From assembly GCA_017620255.1 (NCBI GenBank), contig JAFZQU010000027.1, forward strand, positions 1 to 41,194: DNA of 41,194 nucleotides, given 5' to 3'. Each line of letters opens with the position of its first letter. The stretch's first letter is position 1. This stretch comes from Lachnospiraceae bacterium. GTDB taxonomy: Bacteria > Bacillota > Clostridia > Lachnospirales > Lachnospiraceae. Shown piece by piece: positions 5,968 to 35,383 of this stretch. The position numbers were made by a program, and so were the translations under genes. Below the pieces are notes generated by a model, which was not told where the DNA came from, ran no database searches, and saw nothing but the letters and a program-made list of their open reading frames with translations.

Positions 5968-7962
5968 CTAATATACTTTATTTTTTATTTCACAACCGCA
6001 CGCAAACGGTCCCGGAATGACGGATGTTTCGCGGCGATTTCCAAAGTAGTCAATGTCAAATGTGATCGGCGATCCATCCGGATCCTCAAACTTCTGCTGC
6101 GGTTCAAATGCTTTTCCCAGCGTGTCGGTGGAGATCATGTCCACAGTAAAGTCCTTCATGACCTCATAGATATTGGTATCCATATACCATCCGTCATCTT
6201 TTTCCACGACATTAACATATACGGTTCCTGAATTGTCGATAAAGGTGTGATTTTCATTCTTATATGCCTGCGCTCCTTCAAAATAGGCATTCCCGTCGAT
6301 CCACACCGGCAGATGTCCAAAGTGTGCCGGTTCATGCTTTGACATATCCGGGTGAGGCTCTTCCATATCAAACTGCCGGATCCATTCTTCATAGACCGGA
6401 TATTCATCCCAGCAATAAGTGCCGGCTTTACGGTTCTCTCTCTCCTCCAGGGAAGGATCCGAATCATTTAAAATGAGCAGATCTTCAGAAGGCCACTTTT
6501 GAATAAAAATGTTGTTGTAGAAACGGTCATCACCATGCAGGATCGTCATGAAGCCCATCACTTCTGTCCGGTGCGGCATATGATAAGGCGTATATCTCCA
6601 GGTTGTTCCATCTCCCACATAAGTAAAGGATCCGGCACAGAGATTATGCACCATGGCAACGCCCTGCGTTGCGATACGAAGTGAAACATCCGACAGGAGA
6701 ATATTATTGTCGATCAGTGTCGGGCCATGACCGACCTCCACGAAGATATCCTGACAGGTCATGCCGCCGGTAAGCTGTTTGGCAAAGTCCGGCCGTATAT
6801 TATCATGCAACAGGTTCTGAGTGATCCTTGTGCCCTGCGCTTCCCAGTCGCACCAGATCCCCATTGTACAGTGGTGGATATGATTGCGCCGCATTACAAC
6901 ATCGATCGCGGCATGCATCTTGATACCTGCGATCTCGGCACCGCCCAGCTCCATCATATTGTTGATGTGATGGATGTGATTATCTTCGATCACACTGAAT
7001 ACGCCGCCCATGCGGCCGATGATACCACCCTGCTGGCAATGATGGATATTGTTCCGCCTGATGATGTGTCCGCCGATCTTTTCTTTCAGCCAGCCATAGT
7101 ACTGCCCGCGGCATACGGAATCCCTTTCCATCTGGGTCGGGCTCTTGACATGCTTAGTTGTATAGAAGTTGTCGTTTTCGGGGTCATAATAGCGGCCTAC
7201 GCAGATGCCGGCACACTTGCTTCCCCAGATATCACAGTCTTCAATGATCCAGCCTTTGCTCCAGTGCGGGCTGATCATACCGTCCTGATAAGCTGCCGGC
7301 GGCGCCCAGGTCGTTGCTGCCTTGTTGATATTAAAGCCGCTGACGGTAATGTAACCGATGCCTTCTTCCTGCGGCATAAAGCATTCACGACGGACCGTGA
7401 TCTCCACATTTTCCTTTGCGGGATCCGCTCCGCCGAAATTCGCGTAGATGACGGTTTCATCGGTCTCTTTATCCTGCGTTGTAAACCATTTCATTACGGA
7501 TGCTTCAGGGTCCCAGGAACATTCGTAGATGTCACCCTTTTCACACTCTTCCAATGATCCGGCTTCATATAACGCCTGATCATTGAGCCATACACAGCCC
7601 GTATGTTTGTTGGGCGTTGAAAAATACCAGTCGCCGTACACGATCGTCGTATACGGATTATAATCACCAAAGATCGCGTTCTTTACCCTGATCACATAGA
7701 CATTGCCCTTATAGGGCTTCCAGCCGTCTACGGACTCCGCACCGGTAATGACGGCTCCAAGCGGTTTTTCGCTCCGGTAGACGATCCGTGCATCTTCGCG
7801 TCCGGCGTATACCGGATTGACGTTTTCCCGGTAGACACCTGGAGCAACGAGGATCTCATCCCCGGGCCGGGCTTTTATCGCTGCTTCATTGATCTGTCTG
7901 TAAGGATGTTCCTTTGTTCCGTTGCCGTCCGTTACGGCATTTACATCAACATATATGATCAT
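5968..7962 (-). CDS. Beta-xylosidase, GH120
   Basis: A 664-residue right-handed beta-helix protein that matches the Thermoanaerobacterium GH120 xylosidase XylC along its whole length from memory of that sequence (for example the segments [17 protein letters not shown] and [11 protein letters not shown]). The nucleophile is Asp372 in CDWEAQG and the acid/base is Glu409 in IFVEVGHGP, equivalent to Asp382 and Glu405 of XylC. About 14 extra residues lie between them here. The reaction is release of xylose from xylo-oligosaccharides. There is no signal peptide, so it is intracellular. It sits between fumarase beta (32 bases upstream) and the GH51 gene (8 bases downstream), in the same orientation. 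AAAGGA precedes the start. Confidence 0.88.
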
Positions 7963-29126: not shown

Positions 29127-30017
29127 TTGCACCAGTATTTAAGAGCTGTCGGTTTCAGTGAGATCCGGAAGAAAAAAGAGATCAAAGAGTTGTTGAACAC
29201 GATCGTTCACAATTCCGATCAGAAGGAATACATTGAAACGGAACAGGGAACGGTTTTAATTGAATATCACGCTTTATTTTCAGACTCAACAGGAATGACG
29301 ATCCGGGGAGAACTGGATGATGAAAATCAGCTCATGCTTGATTTTTACTATCCGATCTGTATCGGTAAAAATATCAGCACAAACGAGGAAGCCGGGATCG
29401 AGCGGCATGCCGACAAGGAATCTTTCGGCGGTATCTGTGACGATAACCGGATCGGTGTTTCGCTGATCTTTTTTGTGCAAAACGGCATGGAATATATGAA
29501 AAACAGCGTTAAAAAGAAACCTGCCAAGGGTTCTCTTCCGCTGTATTTTTCGGGGCTTTCCCTGCAGGGAAAGATCATGCTTCCGATCAGGAAGAACGAA
29601 ACCGAACGCAAAAAGATCAAGGAAACTGCTCTCGCAAGGACACAGCTGATCGAAGCAGCCAGACACGGAGACGAGAGCGCCTTGGAAAATCTGACGCTGG
29701 ATGAGATCGACACCTATACCATGATCTCCAAGAAGATCCTGAAAGAAGACGTATTTTCACTGGTTGATACCTTCTTTATGCCGTACGGGATTGAATGCGA
29801 CCAGTATTCGATCATGGGTGAGATCGAGGAATTCTCTCTGGAGACCAATAAGCTTACAAAGGAAGAGATCTATGTCCTTGTTTTAAACTGCAACGGTATG
29901 TCGGTGACAGTCTGCATCAATGCCAAGGACCTTTTGGGCGAGCCGCAGATCGGCCGGCGTTTCAAAGGAAACATCTGGCTGCAGGGAAAACTGGAGTATG
30001 CATATACCAATTTATAG
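29127..30017 (+). CDS. DUF3881 family protein
   Basis: A 296-residue protein without TM segments or signal peptide, matching the Lachnospiraceae family DUF3881 in layout (start HQYLRAVGFSEIRKKKE, middle IGVSLIFFVQNGMEYM, end IGRRFKGNIWLQGKLEY). Function unknown. It uses a TTG start at 29127, 6 bases after AGAGGA and 2 bases after the HD-GYP stop. It ends the plus-strand operon; the tRNA-Arg remnant begins 33 bases later. Confidence 0.85.
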   Translation: MHQYLRAVGFSEIRKKKEIKELLNTIVHNSDQKEYIETEQGTVLIEYHALFSDSTGMTIRGELDDENQLMLDFYYPICIGKNISTNEEAGIERHADKESFGGICDDNRIGVSLIFFVQNGMEYMKNSVKKKPAKGSLPLYFSGLSLQGKIMLPIRKNETERKKIKETALARTQLIEAARHGDESALENLTLDEIDTYTMISKKILKEDVFSLVDTFFMPYGIECDQYSIMGEIEEFSLETNKLTKEEIYVLVLNCNGMSVTVCINAKDLLGEPQIGRRFKGNIWLQGKLEYAYTNL

Positions 30018-30050: not shown

Positions 30051-30092
30051 GTCCACGTAGCTCAGCAGGATAGAGCGTTCGCCTCCTAAGCG
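30051..30092 (+). pseudogene. 5' half of a split tRNA-Arg(CCU) gene
   Basis: Acceptor strand GTCCACG, D arm GCTC-AGCAGGATA-GAGC and anticodon arm TTCGC-CTCCTAA-GCG are perfect, then the sequence leaves the tRNA pattern. The missing part is found 5.25 kb away at 35342-35383; both share the 10-bp core CTCCTAAGCG (30083-30092 and 35342-35351). Rejoined, they give a 74-nt tRNA with perfect acceptor (GTCCACG/CGTGGAC) and anticodon (TTCGC/GCGAA) stems. The insertion point is therefore the anticodon loop and stem. Confidence 0.88.
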
Positions 30093-30145
30093 GAAGCTAA
30101 TGGCTTGAAAGCCGCATAAATAGGGGAAATTTTAGAAGCTCGATT

Positions 30146-30166
30146 GAGTGAGTGTGAGTGAGTAAA
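30146..30166 (+). repeat. GAGTGAGT repeats inside left end
   Basis: GAGTGAGTG followed by TGAGTGAGTA, 54 bases inside the left core. The same motif occurs near the right end at nearly the same distance. They could be arm-type integrase sites; this is inference from position. Confidence 0.6.
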
Positions 30167-30177
30167 ACTTAATACCG

Positions 30178-30206
30178 TTAACAAAGAATATATGATATTC
30201 TATGTT
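30178..30206 (+). promoter_or_regulatory. Promoter of the element-borne tRNA-Arg
   Basis: -35 TTAACA (30178-30183), 17-base spacer, -10 TATGTT (30201-30206), ending 8 bases before the tRNA. It is a moderate match, but the spacing is ideal. Confidence 0.5.
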
Positions 30207-30214
30207 TATAGCAT

Positions 30215-30288
30215 GTCTACGTAGCTCAGCTGGATAGAGCACCGCCCTCCTAAGGCGGGTGTCGGAGGTTCGAATCCTCTCGTGGACG
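30215..30288 (+). tRNA. tRNA-Arg(CCU), intact copy carried by the element
   Basis: A complete 74-nt tRNA: acceptor GTCTACG/CGTGGAC (one T-G pair), D arm GCTC-AGCTGGATA-GAGC, anticodon stem CCGCC/GGCGG with loop CTCCTAA (anticodon CCT, reads AGG), T arm GGAGG-TTCGAAT-CCTCT. It differs from the split host gene in both the acceptor and anticodon stems, so it is not a recent copy of it. It has its own promoter and terminator. It probably replaces the broken host gene. Confidence 0.95.
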
Positions 30289-30292
30289 CTTT

Positions 30293-30317
30293 GAGGAGCC
30301 GGTCAGGGCTCCTCTTT
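30293..30317 (+). terminator. Terminator of the intact tRNA-Arg
   Basis: GAGGAGCC (30293-30300) pairs perfectly with GGCTCCTC (30307-30314), followed by TTT. The stop codon of the integrase, on the other strand, lies within this hairpin. Confidence 0.8.
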
Positions 30318-31043
30318 GCATATCAGGCGATCCTTGATCACATCCAGTCGCCTTTTATCCGTAAGAGAATAGTGCGTTTCGTTAGTCTGAACCTCATGCC
30401 CCAGGATCAATGCTCTGTCTGATGCAGAAAATCCCAATTCAATCAGCCTTGAATTGAAAGCCATTCTGAAAGCATGATTATTGGTCGGTACACATCCGAG
30501 CCTCCTGCAGCGCTTACGTAGATTTTGAGCGTAACCGTCCGTTGGTATCATTTTCGAACAGTTTTTTTCATGAAACAGATACGGAGAGTCTCCGGGAATA
30601 GCTTTAGCTGCTTCGATTACGGTTCTTGCCTCTTCCGTTATCGGGATAAACCTTCCATTATGCGGATGCATACGTTCATCTTTGGTATACCCAACCTCTA
30701 CCAGGTTGTTGTGTTTTCCCTCAGATACTTTAATCTGCTGTCTGTGTACATGAATGAAATCATCCTGTAAATCTTCGGCATGCAGTGCTGCCAGTTCACC
30801 GGCTCTCATACCGGTTTCCTTTGCAAGAAGGGACATTAACACACGGGGATTATCCAGATGTTTTTGTGCATCTTCAGTTATCCTGGCAAGCTCCTCAGTT
30901 GAAAATGCTTTTTCTTCATCCGTTTTGACCTCCTGATTGCAGTGTTTATAGTAATCCTGTGCTTCTATATAACGGGTAGGGTTATCAAAACAGATTTTCT
31001 TCCTGATACCGTAATCAAAAACGGCTCCGAGGGACTGAATCAT
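30303..31043 (-). pseudogene. Tyrosine recombinase (integrase), N-terminally truncated
   Basis: At least 246 residues of a phage/ICE-type integrase. The catalytic C-terminal domain looks complete: Arg80 in TGMRAGEL, His190 and Arg193 in HAFR, His216 in LGHE and Tyr225 in THYS. The reading frame extends about 16 codons upstream of the ATG (to about 31091) with integrase-like sequence (core-binding helix), then meets two stop codons; the arm-binding domain and much of the core-binding domain are absent. It therefore may not act without a helper. It ends beside the intact tRNA-Arg, as integrase genes usually lie near attL. The upstream neighbour on the other strand, a sigma factor, is cut at the same junction. 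Confidence 0.8.
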
Positions 31044-31076
31044 TCTCTTAATAAAATCAGGCTTATGATCCAGAAG

Positions 31077-31484
31077 ATGCGGAACCGTCTTGAATTATTA
31101 CCGGCACGGGAGCGAAGACTTCGGTTTCTGAAAAGTAATTATCAGGAGAGAGGCATTGGCATTCGTTACCTATATACGATTGCCAGGAACCTTTGTATTG
31201 AAGAGGCTAGAAAGCAAAAGTCAGATTCTTTATCAGAAGACCTTTCAGATGGAGGAAAAGAGGCAGAGGATATAGTTGAGATAATTCGTGTCCGACAGGC
31301 ACTTGAGAAGTTGCCGGATGAGGACAGGGATCTTATTATCATGCGGTTTGTGAATGAGGAATCTGTCAAAGATATCTGTATGTTTACAGGATTGTCAAGA
31401 TTCGCATTGTATCGCAAATTAAAGAGTTTACAGAGAAAATTGATAGAACTGTTGGAAGGAGGGATAGCTGATTATGAAAAATAA
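31077..31484 (+). pseudogene. ECF sigma factor remnant (region 2 truncated)
   Basis: The open frame encodes the end of sigma region 2 (LRFLKSNYQERGIGIRYLYT then IARNLCIEEARK), a charged linker and a full region 4 (ALEKLPDEDRDLIIMRF to FALYRKLKSLQRKL) that would contact the -35. Regions 2.1-2.3, needed to bind core RNA polymerase and melt DNA, are missing: upstream of about 31105 the sequence turns into the antisense of the integrase. No ribosome site precedes the possible ATG at 31077. The family normally has about 170-190 residues. It is most likely dead, but the frame stays open and overlaps the next gene by 11 bases, so the decay looks recent. Confidence 0.75.
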
Positions 31485-32184
31485 GTGGAAGAGTCATTTG
31501 AAAGATTCGTCAAAGCCGAATTCTGATCGTAAGGACGATTTTATCAGAAAGTACCGAAAGTATAATATCTATGAGACCCCCAAAACCTATCGCCTTATTT
31601 GCAGGCAAATTGCATATATCAGAAAACCGGTATGGCTTATATCATTTCTGACATTGATGATTTCTGTGTGTGGGGTTTATGGCAATACGGAAATAGTATA
31701 TGCGATAGCTGCGATTATGCCGTTTGTTTCCGGAATAGCAGTAATCGAGACATTTCGCTCAAGAATGCATGGTATGACAGAATTGGAAAGTGTGACACTA
31801 ATATCCATGAGGGGAATTATATTCGCGAGGGTATTTTGTATAGGAATATCACACATCTTACTTTTGTTTACTTTGACGATGATAGTAAGCCGCTACAGTG
31901 AACTTGGTTTTTTCATGACAGGAGCATTCCTGACAATACCCTATCTTATATCTTCCATAGTTTGCTTTGAGTTGGAAAGGTCATTATGGGGTAGAAAAAA
32001 TGTGTTTATCAGTCTAGTGGTTTCTATAATCGTATCTTCAGCAATGCTTGTTTTACAGAATCAAAGATACCTACTAACGGAACAGTATAAATGGATATGG
32101 TATCTTACGGAAGTTGTATTAATATTTTTGGAGTGCAGGTCATTGAAAAAATGTTTTTATTCGGAGGATTTCGCATGGAACTGA
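31474..32184 (+). CDS. Membrane protein of an ECF-sigma/ABC operon
   Basis: A 236-residue protein with a charged N-terminal segment of about 50 residues and then six hydrophobic helices (roughly 57-75, 79-98, 120-140, 145-165, 180-195, 205-220). It resembles the membrane proteins that sit between a sigma factor and an ABC-2 exporter in many Clostridia; it might act as an anti-sigma or as an extra permease component. No catalytic motif is seen. It overlaps the sigma remnant by 11 bases and the ATPase gene by 10. Confidence 0.7.
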   Translation: MKNKWKSHLKDSSKPNSDRKDDFIRKYRKYNIYETPKTYRLICRQIAYIRKPVWLISFLTLMISVCGVYGNTEIVYAIAAIMPFVSGIAVIETFRSRMHGMTELESVTLISMRGIIFARVFCIGISHILLLFTLTMIVSRYSELGFFMTGAFLTIPYLISSIVCFELERSLWGRKNVFISLVVSIIVSSAMLVLQNQRYLLTEQYKWIWYLTEVVLIFLECRSLKKCFYSEDFAWN

Positions 32185-32879
32185 AAGTGGACCGTTTGAC
32201 AAAGCAGTATAAGAATAAGATTGCTGTCGACAGGATTTCTTTTTCATTGGAAAAAGGTGTCACAGGCCTTCTTGGAGCCAATGGGGCAGGGAAAACAACA
32301 TTGATGAGGATGATCTGCGGAATTTTAGAGCCGACAAGCGGAGATGTTGCTTATGATGGACTTCCGGTGTCGGAGGAAAGATTTAGGAGCATTCTCGGAT
32401 ATCTTCCACAGGATTTTGGCTATTATCCTGAATTTTCAGGAAGAGATTTTCTGCTGTATTTTTCCGCGTTAAAAGGCCTCAGTAAGAAGGAGGCAAAAGT
32501 TCGAACGGAGGAACTCCTTGAAATTGTTGGATTGTCTGATATGGCGAAGAAGAAAATTAAAACATTTTCCGGTGGTATGAAACAGCGGTTGGGAATTGCG
32601 CAGGCTTTGATCAACAGGCCGGATGTGCTTATACTTGATGAGCCTACTGCTGGACTTGATCCAAAGGAAAGGGTGCGTTTCAGAAATCTCATTGAAGAGA
32701 TCGGTAAAAAAAGCATAGTGCTGCTGTCAACGCATATCGTATCAGATATAGAACATATTGCTGATTATGTAATCATGATGAAAGAGGGGCAGATTATCTG
32801 GAAAGGGGCGTGGAGTGAGGCTGATGGAAGTCTGGAGGATTTTTATTTGAAAGAGTTTGAGGAGGAAGAATTGTCATGA
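32175..32879 (+). CDS. ABC transporter ATP-binding protein
   Basis: A 234-residue ABC ATPase of the ABC-2 (CcmA-like) exporter group. Walker A GANGAGKTT is at 34-42, the Q-loop at LPQD (77-80), the signature FSGGMK at 131-136, Walker B VLILDEP at 151-157 and the switch His in STH. The start is the ATG at 32175, 7 bases after CGGAGG; upstream codons in the same frame belong to the previous gene. It overlaps the permease start by 4 bases, so the two are coupled. The substrate is unknown; peptides or lipids are usual for this group. Confidence 0.93.
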   Translation: MELKVDRLTKQYKNKIAVDRISFSLEKGVTGLLGANGAGKTTLMRMICGILEPTSGDVAYDGLPVSEERFRSILGYLPQDFGYYPEFSGRDFLLYFSALKGLSKKEAKVRTEELLEIVGLSDMAKKKIKTFSGGMKQRLGIAQALINRPDVLILDEPTAGLDPKERVRFRNLIEEIGKKSIVLLSTHIVSDIEHIADYVIMMKEGQIIWKGAWSEADGSLEDFYLKEFEEEELS

Positions 32880-34060
32880 ATAATCTTGGCGTGTTGTTGA
32901 AATATGAATTGAAAAAATTAATTGTAAATAAAGTGACAATTCTTTCGCTGATTGTAGGTGCAGGGTTCTTATTCGGGATCACGATGGCACAGTATTTGCT
33001 GATCAGTCCGAATGATAAATATATTGCAAAGAGAGATAGCGTACTTGATGGACGTCCTTTTGATGAAATGCTGATCAAAGAGGTGACGGAGACAGCAGTA
33101 GAATTTGACAGACTTGACCAAATACCGGCAGATAATCCATGCTATCAGATCGCAAGTTATATGATAAGGCTTTTGGGGACTTATATGAGTGTTGATGGGA
33201 TTACGGGTGCTTATTCACTTCAGGAACTTACGGAGGGGAAAGTATATCAGACAAGAATTGATATGATTGAATACTTTCTGGAATATTTTTGCCTGTCGGA
33301 TGCTGAGAAAGATTATTGGTACCAAGAGGAAAACAAAGTTGAAAAGCCTTTTATCTGGTGTGCTAATCATGGCCCATGGGCTATGCGGTCAAGTTTTGCA
33401 CTTACAACGGTAATGTCTATTATGATGATCGGAATCTGTACGGCCGGTATATTTGCATCAGAATATGGTTATCGTACACAGGATTTAATCTTGTGTTCAA
33501 AAGAAGGAAAGGGGACAGTGATCATAGCAAAGCTTCTTGGCGGAGAGATTTTTTCAATCCTTGTTGGTACGATCCTGCTTTTATCAGCTCAACTGCCGCA
33601 TCTCATTTTTAACGGTGTTCATGGATTGGGTGCACCTTGTCAAATAGTAGTACCGTTTACATCATATCCATTTACAGCATTACAGTTATTGGGGGCGTGT
33701 ACACTTCTATATTTATTATCTGCTTTATTAACTGGGGCTATTTCTATGATTTTGTCATGCACCTTGAAAAATGGAGCTGTTGCTTCAGGTGTTATATGTA
33801 TTGTGGTAATGATGGATATGTTCTTATCAATTCCGGCTGAGTTTAGAGTAGCAGCACAGATACGATATCTCACGCCGGTGCAGGTTTTAAACAGTTCCTC
33901 AATAACAGATCCGAGGCTTTTGCGAATAGGGAACTTATTTTTGACATCTTATCAAACGGCAGGAGTTGTCTATTTTTCATTGGCGGCTCTTTTGTGTTTG
34001 GGTAATGTTTATATATGTAAAAGAAAGTTTAGTTGTTCGGGAAAGGAGATAAAAGAATGA
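32876..34060 (+). CDS. ABC-2 type transporter permease
   Basis: A 394-residue permease. TM1 (about 18-42) is followed by a large outer loop of about 130 residues, then a bundle of five helices from about 170 to 380. The order of one helix, large extracellular domain, then five helices is that of ABC-2 permeases such as those for bacitracin or lantibiotic self-protection. The ATG overlaps the ATPase stop. The stop overlaps the start of a 48-residue membrane protein (ATGA). Confidence 0.85.
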   Translation: MNNLGVLLKYELKKLIVNKVTILSLIVGAGFLFGITMAQYLLISPNDKYIAKRDSVLDGRPFDEMLIKEVTETAVEFDRLDQIPADNPCYQIASYMIRLLGTYMSVDGITGAYSLQELTEGKVYQTRIDMIEYFLEYFCLSDAEKDYWYQEENKVEKPFIWCANHGPWAMRSSFALTTVMSIMMIGICTAGIFASEYGYRTQDLILCSKEGKGTVIIAKLLGGEIFSILVGTILLLSAQLPHLIFNGVHGLGAPCQIVVPFTSYPFTALQLLGACTLLYLLSALLTGAISMILSCTLKNGAVASGVICIVVMMDMFLSIPAEFRVAAQIRYLTPVQVLNSSSITDPRLLRIGNLFLTSYQTAGVVYFSLAALLCLGNVYICKRKFSCSGKEIKE

Positions 34061-34203
34061 AAACGGTTGGCATAATTATGCTTGTTTTAGCGGTGATAAT
34101 ACTATTAGTAGGCATTATTTCACCAATAAACATTTTTGTGTGTGCTTTGATTGCCGCTTTATTTTTCCTAATTGGTGCGATAATCATAAAAAAACACAAA
34201 TAA
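34057..34203 (+). CDS. Small membrane protein, 48 residues
   Basis: It starts MKTVGIIMLVLAVIILLVGI, has two hydrophobic helices separated by SPIN, and ends in KKHK. Its ATG overlaps the permease stop codon (ATGA) and AAGGAG lies 8 bases upstream, so it is very likely translated. It is probably an accessory subunit or regulator of the transporter; I recognise no family. Confidence 0.75.
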   Translation: MKTVGIIMLVLAVIILLVGIISPINIFVCALIAALFFLIGAIIIKKHK

Positions 34204-34381
34204 TAACGGAGTAAACATTGCTCATCAGCCTTATAATTGTGCTTATGCTTTTAAATGCATAAGTGTATAGTGATATAATTATAGTCGATTTTTGTCATCT
34301 CATAGTCGTTTTATGTATAGGGCTTTATAGAAGAAGTCGGATTGTCGATAAAATGAATATAACAGACAAACGCTAAGGAGA

Positions 34382-34430
34382 GCATCTGTAATCAAGGGAT
34401 TGGTAGATACCTGTTACGGATGCTTTTTAT
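34382..34430 (+). terminator. Hairpin plus U-tract before the DUF6033-like gene
   Basis: GCATCTGTAA (34382-34391) pairs with TTACGGATGC (34414-34423) with one T-G pair, followed by TTTTTAT. It may end the ABC operon or act as an attenuator for the gene 20 bases further on. The rest of the 34204-34449 gap is A/T-rich without a clear gene. Confidence 0.65.
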
Positions 34431-34449
34431 ATAGTAACGGAGGTGAAAT

Positions 34450-35145
34450 ATGGATATAAGCAGTTTAGGTGGTGTGGCAAGTGCATACGGTTATGCAAAT
34501 CAGATCAGGAATAAGTCGGTTTCATCATCCGATTTTGCAAGTTCGCTGAATAAAGCAACATCGTCAGATAACGTAGTAGAAGCCTATAAGAACAGCCTGC
34601 AAAGTAAGTTCGGATGCCCTATTACAGTGGCAAGCGTAGGAAAAGATCAGAATAGCATGGATAGATTTGCCGGGGGAACTGTTGGTTCCGGGAATGTAGC
34701 TATTGCGCCAAATATTCTGGAGCAGATGGCTAATGATCCGGAGAAGGCGACTTATTACGAGAAGAAAATACAGGAACATTTTGATTCTTTGCCATCAACA
34801 GAGGCTTTTTTAGGAGCCCATAATCTTAGAATGACCACAAGTGGAGTTACGATTCATGAAGATGGCACCGTGACTTATTATTGTAGTTGTGAAGAAACGC
34901 CAGAATATAAGGCAAAGGTGGCGGCTGATCATAAGGCCAAGAGGGAGAAAGAAGCTAAAGAAAGACAGGAAAGTATTGAGCGGAGCCAAGAGGCTGCAGA
35001 TGAACGTAGACGTATTCAGGAAGAAATTTATCATATGAGAAGTATAGAAGCTGTTCTTAACGAGCAGATGCTTGGCTCAGGGACATATGCTTTTGGAGAT
35101 ACTCCTGAAAGTGTATTAGCAGCATATGGTTCGAGAACAGAATAG
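34450..35145 (+). CDS. Uncharacterised protein, probably DUF6033
   Basis: A 231-residue protein. Its start (DISSLGGVASAYGYANQIRN) and Ser/Asn-rich N-terminus, the NVAIAPNILEQMANDPEKA segment, the GVTIHEDGTVTYYCSCEETP segment and a charged helical tail (about 160-210) resemble Clostridia proteins annotated as DUF6033; this is recognition by look, not by search. There is no classical signal peptide. The coiled tail and the N-terminus are reminiscent of exported flagellar or type III-like rods, but this is weak. It has its own GGAGG site and is the last gene before the right end of the element. Confidence 0.6.
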   Translation: MDISSLGGVASAYGYANQIRNKSVSSSDFASSLNKATSSDNVVEAYKNSLQSKFGCPITVASVGKDQNSMDRFAGGTVGSGNVAIAPNILEQMANDPEKATYYEKKIQEHFDSLPSTEAFLGAHNLRMTTSGVTIHEDGTVTYYCSCEETPEYKAKVAADHKAKREKEAKERQESIERSQEAADERRRIQEEIYHMRSIEAVLNEQMLGSGTYAFGDTPESVLAAYGSRTE

Positions 35146-35260
35146 TTTTTGTGCAGAAAATATTTGTTTAGTAAGGATTCAACTCAATCCAGGTTCATGA
35201 TACAATAACAATCGCCTAAGGCAATCGCTAATTTTTGCGAAGGTGGAACTGCCGCCTCGG

Positions 35261-35287
35261 GTGAGTGAGTAAGTGAGTGAGTTTTCA
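35261..35287 (+). repeat. GAGTGAGT repeats inside right end
   Basis: GTGAGTGAGT, AA, GTGAGTGAGT, then TTTCA. It ends 55 bases before the right core; another TGAGTGAGC is at 35327-35335. The 35146-35341 gap also has small hairpins (GGTGG/CCGCC; GGG-CCC) and possibly TTCAAC-17-TACAAT, but no gene I can support. Confidence 0.6.
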
Positions 35288-35341
35288 ATAGTGTGGTATG
35301 GGAACCCGCTCCCTTTCTACATTTTTTGAGTGAGCTTTTTT

Positions 35342-35383
35342 CTCCTAAGCGAAAGGCCGGAGGTTCGAATCCTCTCGTGGACG
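35342..35383 (+). pseudogene. 3' half of the split tRNA-Arg(CCU) gene
   Basis: Begins with the shared core CTCCTAAGCG, then GCGAA completes the anticodon stem that only the half at 30051 can pair with (TTCGC). Variable loop, T arm (GGAGG-TTCGAAT-CCTCT) and acceptor CGTGGAC with discriminator G follow. Its last 26 bases plus CT are identical to the end of the intact tRNA-Arg. It is followed by a terminator, presumably that of the original gene. Confidence 0.88.

Follow-up and report, generated by a model that had tools for sequence, protein, structure and literature searches.

An integrative-element remnant in a Lachnospiraceae genome that probably replaced the host tRNA-Arg(CCU) it broke, and similar layouts in other Clostridia

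Introduction

The closest described parallel to the locus treated here is tRNA-dependent lysogeny, which is already known for phages (Guerrero-Bustamante & Hatfull 2024, PMC10865867). In the available portions of that paper, its traits are a core of about 10 bp, a transfer RNA (tRNA) target that is not rebuilt, a cognate tRNA carried by the phage and putative arm sites around the attachment site attP, and its authors consider the mechanism plausible beyond actinobacteriophages. Here we describe a comparable arrangement in a 41,194-nucleotide contig of a Lachnospiraceae bacterium (JAFZQU010000027.1, assembly GCA_017620255.1), referred to below as the window, in which a tRNA-Arg(CCU) gene is interrupted by what remains of an integrative element that carries a complete tRNA-Arg(CCU) of its own. 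We assign a probability of roughly 0.88 to the reading that this element broke the single host tRNA-Arg(CCU) without restoring it and brought the replacement.

The actinobacteriophages of PMC10865867 (Fionnbharth, Cluster L and Gordonia phages) target tRNA-Lys(TTT), tRNA-Ile2(CAT) or tRNA-Leu(CAA), and the need for their tRNAs was shown experimentally; the present elements, in contrast, look mobilizable and target tRNA-Arg(CCU), and their hosts may need the carried tRNA. As far as the accessible text of that paper goes, they also differ from those phages in keeping the tRNA beside attL, in apparent takeovers stacked on one another and in tRNAs that were left over. An inactivated host tRNA is likewise exchanged for a foreign isoacceptor in prophage-related sequences of Sinorhizobium meliloti (PMC11476347) and in prophage Lj965 (as cited in PMC10865867), cases that differ in their prophage context and hosts and for which the available passages describe no serial stacking. 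Such tRNA replacement is absent from the phiLM21-like prophages in what is available of PMC12429752. Classical tRNA-gene islands, as presented in the accessible part of the Islander work (PMC4383910), likewise combine a tyrosine integrase, a tRNA target and a displaced fragment at the far end, but restore the target from island sequence, whereas the present target is not rebuilt.

The broken host gene and the carried tRNA

The window comprises the whole contig (C34) of a 2.93-Mb genome in 48 contigs that is 99.8% complete. Its host tRNA-Arg(CCU) gene is cut in the anticodon loop at CTCCTAAGCG, the 10-bp core common to both halves, which covers the anticodon loop and three bases; the insertion measures 5,259 bp from core to core. 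When the halves were joined by script, all seven acceptor pairs (7/7) and all five anticodon-stem pairs (5/5) formed and the product was read as tRNA-Arg. At either half as it stands in the window, ARAGORN called no tRNA, and the sequence directly 3' of the 5' half folded no better than shuffles (z 0.07). The classical arrangement, in which attP supplies the 3' part of the tRNA and makes attL a whole tRNA, was not found in the window. The first-pass annotation had held that the gene was split at the core rather than decayed and that its 5' half was not restored. The former claim is borne out by the complementarity of the halves, empty sites and recurrent element ends, and the latter by the missing tRNA call in place and the fold score. 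Chance can be excluded as the origin of this layout because the same ends recur in other species (genome G334) and an unbroken gene lies near the neighbouring DUF3881 gene in relatives.

The complete tRNA-Arg(CCU) is set 123 bp in from the left end of the element and is similar to the host tRNA without being the same, the two agreeing at 65 of 74 aligned positions. Promoter-like hexamers precede it (4 in a 451-bp region on both strands, against 0.7 in shuffles). Thus, of an earlier description of this gene as complete, with promoter and terminator, the tRNA and the promoter-like hexamers stood, while the terminator-like hairpin gained little from the scan. Among the 39 tRNA matches in the genome, the arginine anticodons seen were one CCT (the carried gene), one TCT, one CCG and one ACG. 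The anticodon survey covered all but eight of the matches, each 81–90 nt long, the one in the window being a tRNA-Ser(GCT); a ninth match without a locus is the tRNA-Arg(CCG). A length of 81–90 nt is usual for leucine and serine tRNAs. Searching the genome with a CCT pattern returned the carried and the displaced 3' halves and one further match that is no tRNA by eye. The gene count that the first reading had called for therefore gave no complete tRNA-Arg(CCU) besides the carried one among the 39 matches. In 23 long open reading frames (ORFs) outside the element, AGG accounts for 17.6% of 426 arginine codons.

These observations are best explained by the following course of events. The tyrosine integrase of the element probably recombined an 8–10-bp attP core with the anticodon loop of the single host tRNA-Arg(CCU) gene; since attP and the host gene have only the core in common, attL does not rebuild the tRNA, as the sequence shows. 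The tRNA-Arg(CCU) of the element, beside attL, probably takes over the lost function. A later internal deletion probably removed the N-terminal part of the integrase and, relative to a homologous element in genome G335, the VapE, zinc-finger and mobilization genes, and the element would consequently no longer be mobile by itself. The carried tRNA was kept intact, which would fit its present use by the host. At other tRNA-Arg(CCU) genes, elements with different left ends and integrases appear to have produced the same layout, in a few places repeatedly. That the element replaces the tRNA it destroys, as originally suggested, is supported by the empty sites, the same ends in other hosts, the 14 of 14 rejoined half-pairs described below and the lack of another tRNA-Arg(CCU); that it thereby makes itself needed by its host may also be true. 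Since the window copy itself is dead, any such need can concern its tRNA alone.

Empty sites in the genus

DUF3881 was located at 20 places in 19 of the 37 genomes of the genus, the window's own genome included. At 15 of the 19 places in the 18 other genomes, a tRNA-Arg(CCT) lies at most 1.5 kb away, and at 14 of these 15 (14/19 overall) it is a single unbroken gene, which answers to the unbroken gene that the first-pass annotation had expected in relatives. The closest relative, G015, whose DUF3881 is 86% identical, is among the genomes with an unbroken gene. The fifteenth place, in G036, shows the same layout independently; there, the broken 5' half belongs to another type of tRNA and is followed by a left end with GAGTGAC/GTGAGTG repeats and by a complete tRNA. 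Across the genus, the CCT pattern matched in 18 other genomes, once each in 17 and twice in G017.

Distribution of the layout across species

To survey the layout more widely, one genome from each of 84,980 species was scanned (contigs of at least 3 kb; records close to the window's genome were possibly left out) for two CCT cores 143–173 bp apart, start to start, with a T loop after the second. The scan yielded 86 stretches; 80 loci were listed, holding 82 matches by script, on which the later counts rest. In these 82 matches, ARAGORN read the first copy as broken and the second as complete in 58, the first as complete and the second as not in 17, both as complete in 2 and neither in 5. Requiring a T loop in the second copy biases the pattern towards complete second copies, but not towards broken first ones. 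Within the 58, 13 belong to another class with a T-loop insertion and 5 lack a tRNA 5' half by eye (L139, the second match of L141, L144, L145 and L160). We judge that about 40 matches share the arrangement of the window, including one, L083, that is doubtful for its decayed-copy look; an automatic D-arm test missed two visible tRNA halves (L147 and L157), which were added by eye.

Families of left ends occur beside different host 5' halves: cluster 0 comprises 6 loci with 5 distinct halves, cluster 1 has 4 with 4, cluster 2, the left-end type of the window, 4 with 3, cluster 4 has 3 with 3, and clusters 9 and 11 have 2 with 2 each. The hosts are mostly Clostridia, among them the named Butyrivibrio strains AC2005, INlla14 (G336, with a full-length element of 12.6 kb) and INlla21 (G338), and include one Pseudomonas strain. 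A first version of the pattern had matched 2 of 299 genomes of the family, the window's and G061, against 1 of 299 for a reversed-pattern control; contig coordinates of G061 agree with those of G361, and the two are probably the same organism. By this pattern the layout is therefore rare; the case rests on the anatomy of each match and not on match counts.

For 30 of the 80 listed loci, the genome was searched for displaced CCT 3' halves, which were paired in 13 (9 on the same contig, 4 on another contig), while 6 genomes with several matches were left unpaired. Together with the window, the own half-pairs were read as tRNA-Arg in 14/14 cases, compared with 67/182 cross-pairs, and both stems were complete in 13/14 own pairs against 5/182 cross-pairs, a comparison that favours own pairs somewhat, as these served to fit the 5' start. 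The core common to both halves is 8–17 bp long in all 14 paired loci and 8–12 bp in 12 of them, and the first copy was read as a tRNA neither in the window nor in the 13 others. No complete match to the CCT pattern other than the carried tRNA was found in the 14 paired genomes; the single extra matches in the window genome and G360 are no tRNAs by eye. Ten elements with both ends on one contig, including that of the window, extend over 3.6 to 33.4 kb from core to core.

The scan also brought up arrangements of other kinds. In 13 of the 82 matches, a tRNA-Arg(CCT) copy with an often GC-rich insertion in the T loop, after GTTCG, is followed by an intact copy (L131, L132, L133, L096, L106, L114, L118, L142, L151, L155, L159 and L161 in Clostridia; L091 in a metagenome-assembled genome of Legionellales); these inserted copies look like a separate sequence family. 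Seven Xanthomonas loci (L088, L100, L101, L105, L110, L120 and L135) have a complete tRNA-Arg(CCT) and, about 150 bp further on, a CCT 3' half, with a short stretch between, and look like the excision or deletion scar of a classical island. Two loci of Ignavibacteria (L089 and L094) contain repeats about 157 bp apart with CTCCTAAG and a GTTCGA motif, in which ARAGORN found no tRNA. A scan of viral contigs gave three matches, none with a tRNA 5' half before the first core. In one of them (L219:829-1100), a palindromic CCCCCTCCTAAGGGG core is followed after about 150 bp by a tRNA-Arg(CCT)-like gene, and the stretch may be a phage attP that works in the same way; L220 and L221 resemble chance matches.

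Relatives and type of the element

The element in G334 matches the left end, tRNA and integrase C-terminus of the window at 90% over 985 bp and its right end at 96–98%; G334 is another species, and its broken host tRNA differs in type. The homologous element in G335 spans 14.8 kb between the cores and encodes a 442-residue integrase, a VapE-like protein, a CHC2 zinc finger, a weak Mob_Pre match, an XRE regulator, a sigma factor, an AbiEii-like protein, a response regulator with a histidine kinase and a DUF6033 protein, and G339 contributes a TraG/TraD-type protein. No relaxase was found in the window remnant, and no phage structural families were found in the scanned ORFs of the window element or in the 10 scanned of about 17 ORFs in G335, an outcome that argues against a phage. 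Searches of a phage collection and of plasmids with the integrase returned only relatives below 25% identity. PF00589 was detected in the truncated window protein and in 6 of 9 candidate proteins elsewhere (G009, G339, G361, G360, G350 and G351); the G340 candidate fell just below the cut-off, the G363 candidate had no match at all and that of G347 is a nuclease. The window remnant was probably once an integrative mobilizable element. The 25-kb element in G340 (L200) also encodes a serine recombinase with Resolvase and Recombinase domains and has a Replic_Relax match just below the cut-off, and it may be composite.

Alternative explanations

Several observations weigh against replacement by the element. 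The genome has a tRNA-Arg(UCU), which may read AGG by wobble. By pattern, 5 of 17 high-quality genomes of the genus have no tRNA-Arg(CCU), and a looser pattern gave only two matches in these five, neither a tRNA by eye; the CCT tRNA may therefore be dispensable, although its absence there is unproven, as contigs can end at such sites (in G018 the contig stops about 100 bp past DUF3881). For 11 of the 30 genomes, the search for a displaced half returned the carried tRNA and nothing else. The 3.6-kb element of G347 yielded no integrase, and the Mob_Pre matches in G335 (5.9e-05) and G336 (3.1e-04) both lie under the curated Pfam cut-off. Finally, G009 lacks the left end and has an unbroken tRNA immediately ahead of its integrase gene, whose product is 93% identical, so that the integrase family of the window may also use the classical restoring mode; G009 could reflect either classical restoration or a recombination between two 5' halves that deleted the arm. 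Together with the differences in integration mode between related phages noted in the available text of PMC10865867, this arrangement speaks for a classical restoring element, its tRNA rebuilt from the host 5' half and an element 3' half and duplicated by a later rearrangement. We consider that origin unlikely, given that the same left end, with arm-like repeats after the core, stands at different host tRNAs in several species, and the rearrangement would have had to repeat itself identically.

Two neighbouring tRNA-Arg(CCU) genes, one of which decayed without any replacement by an element, would suit the 2 of 82 matches in which ARAGORN reads both copies as tRNAs, and L083 resembles a decayed neighbouring copy by eye. 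For the window, such a history is very improbable: its complementary halves lie 5.26 kb apart at a 10-bp core, relatives have a single unbroken gene near DUF3881, and an integrase and recurrent ends flank the break. That the halves are intact and complementary would also fit a true split tRNA gene, its half transcripts joined in trans and the host tRNA still working. This can hardly be credited, as the right half is preceded by right-end sequence of the element that is nearly identical in G334, and G338 and G036, which have the same left-end layout, contain no second CCT 3' half by pattern. We know of no trans-joined tRNA halves in bacteria. Breakage and replacement by the element thus remains the preferred reading.

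Possible serial takeover and leftover tRNAs

Some loci seem to bear traces of more than one event. Coprococcus catus VPIC661 (G361, one of the matches in which neither copy was read) has three broken 5' halves of different sequence in a row and then one complete tRNA; when the same locus was read as G061, one tRNA was called, the last. Its second and third halves are each followed by a T-loop-like stretch that, by eye, does not match their acceptor at its end, and a CCT 3' part fitting the second half is found on another contig, where it may be a whole tRNA. Two broken halves precede the complete gene in L082 and L156. G036 and G338 have the left end and the carried tRNA at the locus, but in neither did the window integrase find a match in the adjoining 3 kb, nor was a second CCT half found by pattern in either genome; the body of the element seems to be lost at these two loci and its tRNA to have stayed. 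A 260-bp piece comprising left end, tRNA and terminator is 97.7% identical between G036 (L057:269-528) and G338 (L215), beside different broken host tRNAs, and the two copies cease to match at nearly the same base 3' of the tRNA terminator. As a mini-element this piece was rejected: among the 299 genomes of the family and 37 of the genus it is whole only in G036 (G338 was found by separate comparison). In G017, the second CCT tRNA is followed by a terminator and a short piece that by eye resembles the end of the G009 integrase gene. Over 72 bp, the displaced 3' half of the window and its terminator are 98.6% identical to the tRNA of the G036 element; this tRNA may have been left behind by an earlier element, or the element type of G036 may have acquired its tRNA from such a host.

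These traces suggest a broader scenario, for and against which the odds seem to us evenly divided: in Lachnospiraceae and other Clostridia, the single tRNA-Arg(CCU) would be passed from element to element, each breaking the tRNA of its predecessor and bringing one of its own, and the surviving tRNA would outlive the element.

Content and decay of the window element

The features of the locus are collected in Table 1. Relative to the full-length homolog in G009, the window integrase corresponds to residues 189–442 at 93% identity, about 188 N-terminal residues being gone. By blastn, the window matches G335 up to position 31058 (1277 in G335) and resumes at 31063–31120 (6918–6975), so that about 5.6 kb are absent at the junction. 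With its integrase truncated, the element is a deletion remnant, which its own integrase very probably cannot move. Window positions 33917–34212, which begin within the permease gene, are 97.6% identical to G334. With at most one mismatch, GTGAGTGAGT occurs 6 times in the window, always at the two element ends, against 1.6 expected (1 of 100 shuffles reached 6), a placement to be expected of tyrosine-integrase arm sites.

Table 1 Features at the tRNA-Arg(CCU) locus of the window
Feature	Position	Strand	Basis and remarks
DUF3881 gene, conserved left chromosomal neighbour of the target tRNA	29127–30017	+	Pfam DUF3881, 4.9e-114
5' half of the broken host tRNA-Arg(CCU) (attL)	30051–30092	+	Sequence; core 30083–30092 at its end; joins with 35342–35383
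Left end of the element	30093–30214	+	GAGTGAGT repeats at 30144–30163, resembling integrase arm sites; promoter-like hexamers 5' of the carried tRNA
Complete element-borne tRNA-Arg(CCU)	30215–30289	+	ARAGORN; Rfam, 64.1 bits; sole complete CCT gene found in the genome
Terminator-like hairpin 3' of the carried tRNA	30288–30319	+	Sequence; 1 in scan against 0.5 expected in shuffles, a weak scan signal
Tyrosine integrase, C-terminal part only	30303–31061 (ORF 30303–31043; homology to 31061 or slightly beyond)	-	PF00589, 2.1e-10
Internal deletion junction, integrase fused to remains of sigma-factor gene	31058–31063		blastn against G335
Sigma-70-like gene without N-terminal part	31063–31484	+	Sigma70_r4_2, 1e-06, in 31107–31481
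ORF of 236 amino acids, hydrophobic by eye	31474–32184	+	No family match
ABC transporter ATPase (cargo)	32175–32879	+	ABC_tran, 4.3e-34
ABC-2 type permease (cargo)	32876–34060	+	ABC2_membrane_2, 2.5e-08
DUF6033 protein	34450–35145	+	DUF6033, 1.4e-25; DUF6033 protein of the G335 element, 5.3e-06
Right-end GTGAGTGAGT repeats, probable arm sites	35261–35282	+	Repeat scan
Displaced 3' half of the host tRNA-Arg(CCU) (attR)	35342–35383	+	Sequence; core 35342–35351; joins with 30051–30092

Significance

Literature searches, which covered titles and abstracts and mostly lacked subscription papers, brought up the phage case; they turned up neither a tRNA replaced by a mobilizable element, nor stacked takeovers, nor Clostridia elements that share tRNA-Arg(CCU) as their target. 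What is probably new here is a set of Clostridia elements, probably not phages, with one shared target tRNA, its repeated replacement and leftover tRNAs. The phage mechanism would thereby be extended to mobilizable-looking elements of gut Clostridia, with a layout that is scattered over many lineages, yet rare by the strict pattern used. Such elements would offer a route for the foreign replacement of tRNA genes, which are usually taken to be inherited vertically, and, if the succession of elements outlined above is true, a core gene of translation would descend from parasites. The stacked halves and leftover tRNAs would then form a fossil record in which it can be tested whether elements resist loss by taking over a host gene.

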